A stretch of 42,927 nucleotides of DNA from positions 1 through 42,927 of the IMG/VR virus record IMGVR_UViG_3300043331_000158; one strand, given 5' to 3'. The notes under the pieces are model-generated. The model saw only the letters and a list, made by a program, of their open reading frames with translations. It ran no database searches and had not been told where the DNA came from. The stretch comes from a virus. How positions within the stretch are numbered: position 1 is the stretch's first letter; each line of letters starts with the position of its first letter. Shown here piece by piece: positions 3,561 through 21,739 of the stretch. Made by a program: the position numbers and the translations under genes.

Positions 3561-3884
3561 GTGACCAAGGCCGAGTGCATCCGGGAACTCTACAAGACGG
3601 GGGAGTACACCACGGCGCAGATCGCGGACGTGGTTGGGTGCCGCGAGGAATACGTGCGCGCCGTGCGCCAAAGAACGAACGAATCTGGGCAGCCGCAGTG
3701 CACTCCTGCTGACACCGCATACTACAAGCGGCGTGGTGCTGACCCGAACTATCGCAAGTGGCGGTCCGACCTTCAGTGCGAGCAGTACCATAACAACCCA
3801 AAGTACCGCGAGCGCCAGCTCGCCGCGTGCAGGAAGTGGTACGCGAAGAGCCGCAAGCGCGCCGCCGAGGTCCGCACGCCATGA
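3561..3884 (+). CDS. Small HTH-containing protein
   Basis: I start at the GTG at 3561, preceded by GGGGG. An ATG at 3501 in the same frame adds 20 residues with no coding character. The 107-residue product opens with a helix-turn-helix-like segment (TTAQIADVVGCREEYVRAV) and continues with a Tyr/Lys/Arg-rich tail that has several Cys and many aromatic residues. It may be a DNA-binding regulator of the early region. The stop codon overlaps the GcrA-like start (ATGA at 3881-3884), so the two are probably coupled. No closer family is recognised. Confidence 0.55.
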   Translation: MTKAECIRELYKTGEYTTAQIADVVGCREEYVRAVRQRTNESGQPQCTPADTAYYKRRGADPNYRKWRSDLQCEQYHNNPKYRERQLAACRKWYAKSRKRAAEVRTP

Positions 3885-4378
3885 GCCTTTGGACCCCAAC
3901 CGACGACGACCTGCTCCGCAAGCTCTGGGCTGACGGCCTGTCCTGCTCGCAGATCGGCATGAGGGTGAGGCGCAGCCGCAATGCCGTAATCGGCCGCGTG
4001 CATCGCCTCGGGCTCCCCGGCCGCGTCACGACATCCCGCATCACCTTCAAGCGGAGCGCGATCCCTCGCAAGGCCCGCCCGTTCATCATTGACGAGAAGC
4101 GCGGGCCAAGCCTGCCTGCAGCTCCGCTCCCGCCTCCCAATGCCGCCGACATCCCCCGCATCTCTTTCGAGAAGTTGGACCACCACCACTGCAAATGGCC
4201 GTGCGCGCCCGAGTGGATCAGCACCAGGGCGCCCTACTACTGCGGGGATCTCCGCATCCCCGGCAGCAGCTACTGCGACCATCATCTCCGGCGCTCCCGC
4301 GGTCTACCCGATCCGAGGCGCCCGGCGCCAGCGGCGCCCGTGCCGGCGGAAGCCGCGCCAGTCCTGGAGGCGGCGTGA
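3881..4378 (+). CDS. gcrA: GcrA-family transcription regulator
   Basis: The 165-residue product has the GcrA hallmark N-terminus: WTPTDDDLLRKLWADGLS, then QIGMRVRRSRNAVIGRVHRL (residues 4-43). The C-terminal part carries the matching Cys/His set CKWP...YYCG...SSYCDHH (residues 104-135), which in GcrA contacts the RNA polymerase sigma factor. GcrA of alphaproteobacteria works with sigma70 at promoters carrying GANTC sites methylated by CcrM. A phage copy could redirect host or phage transcription according to methylation. The ATG overlaps the upstream stop, and the downstream methyltransferase ATG overlaps this gene's stop, so three genes are coupled. The central region is Pro/Ala-rich and likely flexible. 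Confidence 0.85.
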   Translation: MSLWTPTDDDLLRKLWADGLSCSQIGMRVRRSRNAVIGRVHRLGLPGRVTTSRITFKRSAIPRKARPFIIDEKRGPSLPAAPLPPPNAADIPRISFEKLDHHHCKWPCAPEWISTRAPYYCGDLRIPGSSYCDHHLRRSRGLPDPRRPAPAAPVPAEAAPVLEAA

Positions 4379-5274
4379 TGCTCCGCGTCCTCGACATCTT
4401 TAGCGGTATCGGCGGCTTTAGCTTGGGGCTCGAACGGACGGGCGGCTTCAAGACGCAAGCCTTCTGCGAAATCGACCCATTCTGCCGCAAGGTCTTGGCG
4501 AAACATTGGCCGGATGTGCCCTGCTACGAAGATGTCCGAACCCTCACAGCTGACGCTCTTTCCCGAGACGGAATTGCCGTCGATGTCATCTGCGGGGGCT
4601 TCCCGTGCCAGGACGTTTCCTTTGCTGGCAGGCGAGCTGGCCTCGAAGGTGAGTGGTCTGGTCTCTGGTCAGAGTACCGGCGTCTTCTTGGCGAGCTACG
4701 ACCCCGCTTCGCAATCGCTGAGAACGTCCCAGGCTTGCTTAGTCTCGGGATGGCAAGAGTTCTCGGAGACCTTGCCGAGATCGGGTTTGATGCTGTCTGG
4801 GACTGTATACCAGCTTCCGCCATTGGCGCCCCTCACCAGAGAGACCGGGTTTGGATCGTTGCCCACGCCAGCGGCGAGGGGCGGTGGGTACAATCAGTCG
4901 GCGAGCTCGGGAGCAGCCATACGGCCGTCGCTCGAAATGATGGCGCGGCACAATCTTTGGCCGACGCCGACGGTCCAAGACGCCCACGGGAGAGATCGCC
5001 ACAACCAGCGCAATGGTGGCGTGATCCTATCGCTGCTGGGCGAGGCACGCCGCAGGACCTGGAGAACTCCGAGTGTAGGCGAGGCCAAGGTCTGCATGAC
5101 CGGGACGCAGAACCAAGTGATGCTGACCCATCAAGTTGGTGGGCAACTGAACCCGCAGTGGGTCGCGTGGCTGATGGGTTATCCGATCGAGTGGACCAGC
5201 TTAGAGCCTACGGCAACAGCGTCGTCCCGCAGATCCCGGAAATAATTGGCAGGGCGATCCTTGAAGCAGCGTAG
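4378..5274 (+). CDS. dcm: DNA (cytosine-5) methyltransferase
   Basis: This 298-residue enzyme should transfer a methyl group from S-adenosylmethionine to C5 of cytosine in phage or host DNA. Conserved motifs appear in order: motif I DIFSGIGGFSLGL (6-18), the catalytic loop GGFPCQDVS with Cys77, ENV (115-117), QRDRVWIVA (154-162), and motif X YGNSVVPQIPEIIGRAI near the end. The variable target-recognition part is short and low in complexity (165-255). The ATG at 4378 overlaps the GcrA-like stop. Almost the whole second half is also open in the +1 frame (4532-5245, listed separately). It may protect the phage from restriction or act with the GcrA-like protein. All catalytic motifs look intact. 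Confidence 0.88.
   Translation: MLRVLDIFSGIGGFSLGLERTGGFKTQAFCEIDPFCRKVLAKHWPDVPCYEDVRTLTADALSRDGIAVDVICGGFPCQDVSFAGRRAGLEGEWSGLWSEYRRLLGELRPRFAIAENVPGLLSLGMARVLGDLAEIGFDAVWDCIPASAIGAPHQRDRVWIVAHASGEGRWVQSVGELGSSHTAVARNDGAAQSLADADGPRRPRERSPQPAQWWRDPIAAGRGTPQDLENSECRRGQGLHDRDAEPSDADPSSWWATEPAVGRVADGLSDRVDQLRAYGNSVVPQIPEIIGRAILEAA
4532..5245 (+). CDS. Overlapping-frame gene inside the cytosine methyltransferase gene
   Basis: This frame is +1 relative to the methyltransferase and is open for 237 codons from the ATG at 4532 (an ATG at 4514 is also possible). It reads like a real phage family rather than a shadow: a start with SEPSQLTLFPE, repeated Trp/Leu-Pro-Thr-Pro motifs (SLPTPAA, LWPTPTVQDA, WRTPSVGEA), and an end with GGQLNPQWVAWLMGYPIEWT followed by a Ser/Arg-rich tail. 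I remember proteins with these motifs next to phage cytosine methyltransferases, usually called hypothetical or methylase-associated. The final codons come from the same bases that encode motif X of the methyltransferase. No membrane segment or catalytic motif is seen, and the function is unknown. Confidence 0.6.
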   Translation: MSEPSQLTLFPETELPSMSSAGASRARTFPLLAGELASKVSGLVSGQSTGVFLASYDPASQSLRTSQACLVSGWQEFSETLPRSGLMLSGTVYQLPPLAPLTRETGFGSLPTPAARGGGYNQSASSGAAIRPSLEMMARHNLWPTPTVQDAHGRDRHNQRNGGVILSLLGEARRRTWRTPSVGEAKVCMTGTQNQVMLTHQVGGQLNPQWVAWLMGYPIEWTSLEPTATASSRRSRK

Positions 5275-19109: not shown

Positions 19110-19171
19110 TGCCCAAGAAACCCAAGACGAAGCCTAAGCCGCGCCCCAAGCCTAGGCCGACTGGTTACTGA
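19109..19171 (+). CDS. 20-residue Lys/Pro-rich peptide frame
   Basis: An ATG at 19109 shares its A with the previous stop, and the TGA ends on the A of the portal ATG. The frame encodes 20 residues dominated by Lys-Pro repeats (KTKPKPRPKPRP). Stop/start coupling on both sides suggests a translated leader that carries ribosomes to the portal gene. Confidence 0.35.
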   Translation: MPKKPKTKPKPRPKPRPTGY

Positions 19172-21477
19172 TGCCCCCCGAGATTGACGACCTCCTGATG
19201 CTCGAAGACCTAGACGGTGGCGAAATGCTGCCTCCGGACATGGGCATGCTGTCCCCGGACACGATGATGCCGGACGAACAGATGCCCATGCTCGACGAGA
19301 TGGGAGAGCAGGAGGAAGACCTGATCCAGCGCCTCCTTCGCTGGGCCGACATTTCCCAGACCCTCAACATCGCCGAGGAGCTGGACGAGACCATCCTCAA
19401 CGACATCGGTCAGCGCGTTGTGCGCGAGTGCCAGATCGATGAAGATTCCCGCAAGGATTGGATGGATAAGACCCGCGGGGCCATGGACATGGCTTTGCAG
19501 GTCGCCAAAAAGAAGATGCACCCTTGGGAAGGTGCCAGCAACGTCATTTTCCCGATTATCACAACGGCCGCGAAGTTCTTCAACTCGCGCGCCTATCCCG
19601 CCATCATCCAGGGGCGCAACGTCGTCAAAGGCGTCGTTGTCGGCAAGGATGACGGTGTCCCGATGCCTCCCCAGATGATGCAGCAGGCACCGGCCGGCGG
19701 CCTCGCCGCGCTCTCCCCGCAGGCGCCGATGCTGCCGCAGCAGGGTGGCCAGCAGTCCCCCATGATGATGGGCCACAACGGCGGCCCGCAGATGGGGGGA
19801 GCCGAGCAACAGCCCCCACAGCAGATGTGGCTTGTCGAGCCGGGCGCCAAGCAGGAGCGCGCCACCCGCATCGGCGAACACATGTCCTGGCAGTTGCTCA
19901 GCATGCCGGAGTGGGAGAGCGACACAGACAAGCTCACCCTGATCCTGCCTATCGTCGGCTGCGGGTTCCGCAAGACCTACTATGACCCGTCCACGGGTGA
20001 GAATTGCGTCCACCTCGTGCTCGCCGAGAATCTGATCATCAACCATCAGGCCAAGAGCATGGAGCGGGCGCCTCGCCTTACGGAGCCCATCGGCCTCTAC
20101 CCCAATGAAGCGGAGGAGATGGTGCGGTCGGGGCTGTTCCTCGATCAGACCTACGAGGGCGACAACGGCGAGGACAAAGACGCGCCCGTCGAGTTCCTGG
20201 AGCAGCACCGCTGGCTGGACCTGGACGAGGACGGCTATGCCGAGCCCTACATCGTCACGGTGCACAAGAAATCCAGCAAGGTGGCGCGCATCGTGGCGCG
20301 CTATGATGCAGACGGCATCAAGATGGGCGAGGACGGCGAAATCCGCCATGTGAAGCCCATCCACTACTACACCAAATACGACTTCATTCCGAACCCGGAC
20401 GGCGGTATCTATGGCATCGGCTTCGGCCAGCTCTTGAGCCCCCTGAACGAAGCTATCAACACCGCGCTCAACCAGACCTTCGACGCCGCGAGCCTGCAGA
20501 ACACGGGCGGCGGCTTCATCGGCCGCGGCATGTCGATGCATACCGGCTCGCTCAAGTTCAAGCTGGGCGAGTGGAAGATGATCAACGCGCCGGGGCAGGC
20601 GCTCAAGGATTCCATCGTCCCGTTCAATCATCCGGGTCCCAGTCCCGTTCTGTTCCAGTTGATCGGCCTGTTGATCGAAGCCGCAAAGGACAGCGCCTCC
20701 GTCAAGGAAGTTCTCTCCGGCGACGCGGCGTTGGCGAACACTCCGCCCACCACGATGATGGCCCTTGTAGAGCAGGGCCTCAACGAATTTACGGCGATCT
20801 TCAAGCGCATCCACAGATCGCTGCAGAAGGAGTTTCAGAAGCTCTACCGGCTCAACTCGATCTATCTGCCGCAGGCGTCGCAGTATCAGGTGGGCGACGA
20901 ATGGCGCGAGGTCACCAAGGCGGACTATGAGCGGGGCGGCGGCGTTCAGCCGTACAGCGACCCCAACATGGTCACGGATATGCAGCGCGCATCGCATGCG
21001 CAGTTCCTGATGACCTATCAGCAGGACCCTCTGATCAATCAGATCGAGGTCCGCAAGCGCATCTTCACGACGGCGGGCATTCCCGATTCCGACAAGCTCA
21101 TCATTCAGCAGCCCCCGGCCGATCCCGCCATCCTGGCGCAGACGGCGCAGCTTGAAGCCGTCAACAAGGAAATCGACAACAAGGCGGCTGCCGCTCAGCG
21201 TGAGCTGGACATCAAGGAAGCCAGCGCCCGCGTTACACAGATCAAGGACTATACGGCCGCCCTGCTCAACGTGGCGAAAGCCGAAGAGGCCGATGCCGGC
21301 ACCGCTCTCGAATACAGTGCGCAATGGCTGAAGGCTATCGAGGTGAGTCTCAATGCGTTGTTGCAGCCGGCCGAAGGCCGCGGTGCCTCCGGTGCCCAGC
21401 GAAGAGCACTGCCGTCGCCGCTCAGCGGAAACCCAGAGGATGCATACATTGGAACCATCGCGAACGCCCTTGGGTGA
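19171..21477 (+). CDS. Portal protein
   Basis: The 768-residue product sits directly after the terminase group and is the right size for a podovirus-type portal. The N-terminus (about 1-50) is acidic and Met/Pro-rich. The middle has long mixed segments including EGASNVIFPIITTAAKFFNS and YTKYDFIPNPDGGIYGIGFG. A Met/Gln/Pro-rich loop near residues 165-225 (QMMQQAP, MMMGHNGG) looks flexible. The C-terminal helical region (about 640-740) would form the barrel. Portals form a dodecamer at one capsid vertex and carry the terminase and later the tail. The antisense frame is open over the same stretch but looks non-coding. Confidence 0.8.
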   Translation: MPPEIDDLLMLEDLDGGEMLPPDMGMLSPDTMMPDEQMPMLDEMGEQEEDLIQRLLRWADISQTLNIAEELDETILNDIGQRVVRECQIDEDSRKDWMDKTRGAMDMALQVAKKKMHPWEGASNVIFPIITTAAKFFNSRAYPAIIQGRNVVKGVVVGKDDGVPMPPQMMQQAPAGGLAALSPQAPMLPQQGGQQSPMMMGHNGGPQMGGAEQQPPQQMWLVEPGAKQERATRIGEHMSWQLLSMPEWESDTDKLTLILPIVGCGFRKTYYDPSTGENCVHLVLAENLIINHQAKSMERAPRLTEPIGLYPNEAEEMVRSGLFLDQTYEGDNGEDKDAPVEFLEQHRWLDLDEDGYAEPYIVTVHKKSSKVARIVARYDADGIKMGEDGEIRHVKPIHYYTKYDFIPNPDGGIYGIGFGQLLSPLNEAINTALNQTFDAASLQNTGGGFIGRGMSMHTGSLKFKLGEWKMINAPGQALKDSIVPFNHPGPSPVLFQLIGLLIEAAKDSASVKEVLSGDAALANTPPTTMMALVEQGLNEFTAIFKRIHRSLQKEFQKLYRLNSIYLPQASQYQVGDEWREVTKADYERGGGVQPYSDPNMVTDMQRASHAQFLMTYQQDPLINQIEVRKRIFTTAGIPDSDKLIIQQPPADPAILAQTAQLEAVNKEIDNKAAAAQRELDIKEASARVTQIKDYTAALLNVAKAEEADAGTALEYSAQWLKAIEVSLNALLQPAEGRGASGAQRRALPSPLSGNPEDAYIGTIANALG

Positions 21478-21739
21478 GATCACCGAGGAGCTGTTCAACG
21501 CCTGGAAGCACCATCCGGTCACGAGGTTCTATCTGCGGTACCTCAGCGACTATGCGCGAGATGGGCACCTCTATCTGGCCGCACTGGTGCGCGGCGCCAA
21601 CACAACGCCCGATCCTTTCCTAATGGGCAGGCTCGCCGGCCATGCGAATGGCGTGGGCGATGCTGGCGCGGTCCAGTACGCTACCATCGTTGATTTCTAC
21701 ACGCCACTAAAGGATATGGAAGAGCAGAATGCAGCCTAG
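21440..21739 (+). CDS. Hypothetical protein, 99 aa, overlapping the portal end
   Basis: The ATG at 21440 gives 99 residues, starting MHTLEPSRTPLGEITEELFN and continuing with HPVTRFYLRYLSDYARDGHL, a helical aromatic segment. It overlaps the portal gene by 38 bases and the next gene by 11. Small helical proteins after the portal are common in podoviruses and may be head or packaging accessories. No family is recognised. Confidence 0.6.
   Translation: MHTLEPSRTPLGEITEELFNAWKHHPVTRFYLRYLSDYARDGHLYLAALVRGANTTPDPFLMGRLAGHANGVGDAGAVQYATIVDFYTPLKDMEEQNAA

Follow-up and report, generated by a model that had tools for sequence, protein, structure and literature searches.

In single-chain C5-cytosine methyltransferases motif IX and the recognition domain are located together in the small domain (PMC3404938). 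In M.AquI the catalytic half and the half containing motif IX are on separate polypeptides, and M.EcoHK31I consists of two polypeptides, of which the larger has motifs I–VIII and X and the smaller motif IX only (PMC3404938, with reference to Lee, Kam and Shaw 1995).

The window, as we call the whole 42,927-nucleotide stretch of viral DNA analysed here, contains a C5-cytosine methyltransferase ORF of 298 aa (alpha; 4378..5274, plus strand). Nested in its +1 frame is a second, phrog_1008-like ORF (beta; 4532..5245, plus strand), which has 237 aa if counted from the ATG at 4532. The first-pass annotation had described both frames in this form. Its statement that the second protein has no assigned function was wrong, since beta, by its sequence, carries motif IX and is the probable site of the recognition region. 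The features of the two ORFs make it very probable that they encode a naturally split C5 methyltransferase, in which alpha would provide motifs I–VIII and X, and nested beta a putative recognition region together with motif IX.

Two overlapping ORFs and their dual coding

Alpha contains motifs I–VIII (residues ~1-168) and motif X (residues ~269-298), and is without motif IX. It matched PF00145 with E 9e-40, the alignment covering profile positions 2-165 only, and phrog_363 with E 1e-79; its PDB matches were to HhaI/HaeIII over residues 2-162. The Pro-Cys-Gln of motif IV, which includes the catalytic cysteine (residues 76-78; 4603..4611, plus strand), was invariant in two alignments. Motif X, which reads GNSVVPQ in the alpha frame (5212..5232, plus strand), was likewise conserved in two alignments. 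The AF2 pLDDT of alpha was ~97 at residues 1-168, <50 at residues 169-262 and ~95 at residues 269-298, and Foldseek placed alpha on the large domain of HhaI/HaeIII with an rmsd of 1.5 over ~166 columns. By this model, residues 169-262 are a segment without predicted fold.

A GcrA-like regulator ORF (3827-4378; PF07750, E 1.7e-22) ends in TGATG, bases that it has in common with the methyltransferase start, and the two are therefore probably coupled in translation. GcrA homologues elsewhere react to DNA methylation, as established for Caulobacter. Another, different DNA methyltransferase is encoded in the same phage (10332-12107, plus strand; phrog_67, E 1.5e-33).

Beta matched phrog_1008 with E 1.6e-24, and the same PHROG was matched by 119/119 beta proteins. 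Searches of Pfam, NCBIfam and PADLOC matched no family to beta, and none was found by direct profile search of PDB sequences. The AF2 model of beta was of low confidence (pLDDT 63) and had no fold match in the PDB; such a poor single-chain prediction may be expected if folding of the protein needs a partner. The Ser/Arg tail of beta largely reflects the frame of methyltransferase motif X.

Because a choice of loci by beta similarity would have biased the selection, 80 viral loci, 77 of them distinct, were fetched by methyltransferase alignment alone. In 77/77 distinct loci a homologous +1 ORF was present, and always in the same phase. For the null, the alpha protein was kept fixed and its synonymous codons were shuffled. 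The longest +1 ORF of the 77 loci had a median of 231 codons versus 98 in the shuffles, and the +2 frame showed no excess (47 versus 61). The genomes in the stop and four-fold tests extended down to 42% GC. These shuffles, applied to loci chosen by the methyltransferase, also rule out the +1 ORF as a passive echo of methyltransferase conservation.

The dual-coding span comprises alpha residues 58-275 (4549..5202, plus strand), where +1 stops were depleted and the synonymous sites of alpha were conserved. In 65 distinct genes, observed and expected +1 stops were 8 and 42 at residues 58-70, 3 and 29 at 71-100, 5 and 120 at 101-130, 0 and 58 at 131-165, 0 and 38 at 166-250, and 10 and 48 at 251-275. 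Outside residues ~58-275 stops were as common as in the null or commoner: 113 were observed and 78 expected at residues 1-20, 130 and 79 at residues 276-298. Four-fold site identity of alpha was 0.26-0.30 outside the span, which equals the null, and was raised only inside it, with a peak of up to 0.78 at residues 251-275. Among close relatives the ratio of changes at position 3 to changes at position 1 of the alpha codons was 3.3 and 2.3 outside, and 1.9, 1.25 and 0.60 inside. We regard dual coding in two frames of one gene as real, and as confirmed at the level of sequence.

The first-pass annotation had proposed that a conserved enzyme gene is overprinted over most of its length; the stop and four-fold footprints, with the 77/77 loci, bear this out and indicate selection on both frames. 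Many +1 stops in homologous genes, or a second frame free of constraint, had been named as signs to the contrary; both were looked for and neither was found. The extreme constraint expected at each position holds in parts but is not equal at every base, because alpha dominates up to motif VIII and beta from motif VIII to motif X.

All loci found in searches with the +1 protein encoded a methyltransferase on that DNA as well. The +1 ORF was in the same phase in 231/232 of these viral and bacterial loci, the one exception being a frame-joined gene (L178). In this gene, from a Bryobacterales MAG (L178 4772-5608), the N-half of alpha and the C-half of beta are in one frame; the join may be natural or may result from an indel in the assembly. 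Beta was never seen apart from an overlapping methyltransferase in the ~380 loci checked. The expectation that homologues of the +1 frame occur only inside methyltransferase genes was thus upheld, and beta as an independent stand-alone gene is not supported.

Motif IX and the segment that precedes it

Conservation in beta is highest at LNPxWVEWLMGFPxxWT, directly before motif X of the alpha frame. In the window this motif IX of the beta frame is LNPQWVAWLMGYPIEWT (5147..5197, plus strand), assigned with a matrix from 59 canonical enzymes, a fused clade, and PDB and Pfam comparisons. At this place canonical C5 methyltransferases of the same genomes that have no nested ORF carry an in-frame motif IX (e.g. 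LTPLECESLQGFPDDW...GNSV); methyltransferases with a nested ORF have no motif IX in their own frame.

The matrix, built from the 59 canonical methyltransferases without a nested ORF, picked the LNPxWVEWLMGFPxxW site in the majority of the 239 beta proteins, with a median score of 3.7 versus -9.9 for shuffled sequences. Applied to the alpha frame, it gave -12.8 versus -12.3 for shuffled sequences. The beta scores are far under those of canonical motifs (3.7 versus 29.8), and one homologue (L450) has LLTPEDGEELMGYPQEWT, a near-canonical motif IX. On these comparisons of sequence, the conserved end of beta is the C5-methyltransferase motif IX that is missing from alpha.

In a clade of 12 viral contigs, here called fused, LNPDWVEWLMGYPISWTDGGSRMQRLMALGNSV is found in the methyltransferase frame, so that motifs IX and X are in one chain. 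The IX-to-X distance in this clade is 33 residues, and from the start of motif IX to GNSV there are 99 nt, versus 77 nt in the split type. PF00145 aligned with the fused-clade protein over positions 2-322 of 324, versus 2-165 for alpha of the window. The best PDB matches of the fused-clade segment, which were weak (E 0.017), were to plant DRM C5 methyltransferases and fell exactly on motifs IX-X. The remainder of the nested +1 ORF is kept in these contigs, without motif IX. A similar in-frame motif IX was seen at an Actinomadura locus (L202).

The interval between motifs VIII and IX (4873..5127, plus strand), whose alpha translation has pLDDT <50 at residues 169-246, evolves mainly as beta code, as indicated by a swap of codon positions. 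In 15 close pairs of split-type sequences (22 genes), a set made up of alignable pairs only, substitutions per codon at alpha positions 1/2/3 were 0.362/0.092/0.050; the N-terminal control from the same 15 pairs gave 0.12/0.053/0.545. Amino acid identity in the interval was 0.90 for the +1 frame versus 0.60 for the alpha frame in these pairs. The fused clade had 0.372/0.165/0.130 substitutions per codon in its VIII-IX interval and identities of 0.77 (+1) versus 0.56 (alpha), and from IX to X the normal pattern returned (0.165/0.10/0.399). In a broader alignment, where protein alignments were noisy, the VIII-IX ratio was 0.92.

Since the DNA between motifs VIII and IX evolves as +1 code, the target-recognition region is probably contained in beta. 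Going by position and selection only, the middle of beta is a putative recognition domain. The corresponding segment of alpha, as modelled, is best read as an unfolded linker in the wrong frame.

A proposed enzyme of two chains, and other explanations

The motif distribution, the dual coding, the +1 selection between motifs VIII and IX and the enrichment of start codons and ribosome-binding sites are demonstrated by the sequences; the mechanism that we propose goes further. One C5-cytosine methyltransferase would be made as two chains from overlapping frames. Alpha would be the catalytic large domain, with AdoMet binding, the catalytic Cys (PCQ) and C-terminal helices with motif X. Beta would be translated from its own internal start codon within the alpha message, and would supply a substitute for the recognition domain, followed at the C-terminus by motif IX. 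We infer that the two assemble into an active enzyme, which would methylate phage DNA as its likely target, presumably protecting it against host restriction.

Independent translation of beta bears on an improbable alternative, programmed frameshifting, by which a single chain would be read in frame 0 for motifs I–VIII, in the +1 frame for the recognition region and motif IX, and back in the first frame for motif X. The order in the message (I–VIII, +1 segment, X) would let a product of two shifts resemble a complete enzyme; two shifts would, however, be needed, and an open, constrained +1 frame begins already at residue ~58, far ahead of motif VIII, although a shift after VIII would not call for this. 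Moreover, beta start codons and Shine-Dalgarno sites far exceed the synonymous null: 94% of the +1 ORFs had a first ATG, versus 41% of the synonymous shuffles, and 4 nt or more of Shine-Dalgarno match stood before it in 40% versus 4.8%. The beta ATG of the fused clade is preceded by GAGG or AGGAGG and comes directly after +1 stops, which also argues against frameshifting. In a marine subgroup the sole early ATG directly follows a +1 stop and has AGGAG nine bases upstream. In the window the ATG at 4532, which is without a clear Shine-Dalgarno sequence, is the start best supported by position in homologues; the alternative ATG at 4514 would give 243 aa, and the stop is at 5243-5245.

Slightly less probable than frameshifting is that beta, a protein in its own right, has an unrelated function, for instance as a methylation regulator or an anti-restriction factor, with the methyltransferase gene serving only as its location, and that its likeness to motif IX is convergent. 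Beta exceeds motif IX in size, has no known domain and is conserved also upstream of motif IX, under alpha motifs IV-VIII, and in the fused clade it persists without motif IX, all of which would suit such a role. Against it, motif IX is absent from alpha and present in beta at the right place, and in the fused clade it stands in frame with motif X at normal spacing and completes the Pfam model; the association with an overlapping methyltransferase at every locus checked also speaks against a role of this kind. A non-coding origin of the +1 ORF, as a by-product of high GC and of the codons that the methyltransferase uses, can practically be dismissed: spurious long ORFs are common in GC-rich DNA and the window has other antisense ORFs, but the stop depletion and four-fold conservation relative to shuffles appear at methyltransferase-chosen loci, down to 42% GC and at residues ~58-275 only, and the codon positions are swapped in VIII-IX.

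Elsewhere in the window there is an antisense ORF pair, 19171-21477 (plus strand, 768 aa) and 19210-21522 (minus strand, 770 aa). The plus-strand ORF encodes a portal protein (phrog_1216, E 9e-22); the minus-strand ORF, for which PHROGs gave no match, is probably a shadow of GC-rich sequence.

Occurrence and relation to known enzymes

In tblastn searches the +1 product was found in 203 phage records, and its leading matches, from phages of cyanobacteria, mycobacteria and paenibacilli, coincided with methyltransferase matches. There were at least 575 viral relatives. The nested pair was present in 28/399 sampled Pseudomonadota genomes and in 4/5426 E. coli genomes; loci were also found in genomes of many bacterial phyla and on one archaeal plasmid. 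In most records checked, RefSeq E. coli records included, the nested ORF is unannotated.

Several genomes contain more than one copy. A prophage region of E. coli PT62 (L442 42-1028 and 3000-3737) has two nested methyltransferases of two subfamilies ~2 kb apart, of which PGAP annotates the alpha frames only. One viral contig carries nested methyltransferases in tandem (L309 133-1952), and in one Myxococcus genome (G005; contigs C124, C801 and C977) the nested pair occurs at least three times. In E. coli PCP07014 (L443 3003-3764) alpha has an internal stop and beta is interrupted, as in a decaying copy.

We think it rather likely that the split enzymes form a widespread class of C5 methyltransferases, mainly of phages and prophages, in which the whole specificity half has moved to an overlapping frame as a gene of its own. 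The recognition part would thereby be free to diverge or to be swapped for another, with a wrong-frame linker left in alpha. Few long same-strand overlaps known from prokaryotes and their viruses would be as widely conserved as this one. A dual-coding gene of ~220 codons conserved in phages and prophages of many bacterial phyla is rare. A split enzyme would explain why such methyltransferases seem to be without recognition domain and motif IX, and would give PHROG 1008 a function. From it one would predict that, where the beta start has been recoded, cloning or assaying the annotated methyltransferase by itself may be unsuccessful or misleading. The fused and split clades offer a natural experiment on the origin and resolution of overlapping genes.

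A search of the open literature, with most subscription journals outside its range, found no paper on the overlap as a family, mentions of M.EcoHK31I aside. The 'g50 internal gene' of the Paenibacillus phages Redbud and Rani (REDBUD_51, RANI_51) is the same nested ORF. These records and PHROG 1008 name it 'hypothetical' or 'DNA methyltransferase' and leave the overlap and motif IX unmentioned; in other records examined the methyltransferase is annotated at most.

The large domain of alpha is the same as that of the canonical monomeric enzymes M.HhaI and M.HaeIII, but the recognition domain and motif IX that these have in their single chain are absent from alpha. As in M.AquI (CYCGRG), motif IX is split from the catalytic half. 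The small subunit of M.AquI, however, comprises motif X as well as motif IX, along with half of the variable region; in the window's pair motif X belongs to alpha, and one gene lies within the other. In M.EcoHK31I (YGGCCR) the small chain is reportedly encoded in a different frame within the gene of the large chain, and the two are said to be required together in vitro. The window's pair is like M.EcoHK31I in having an alpha chain without motif IX and a small chain with it. It is unlike M.EcoHK31I in that the recognition domain of that enzyme is predicted in the large chain, whereas here the VIII-IX interval is under selection in the nested frame.
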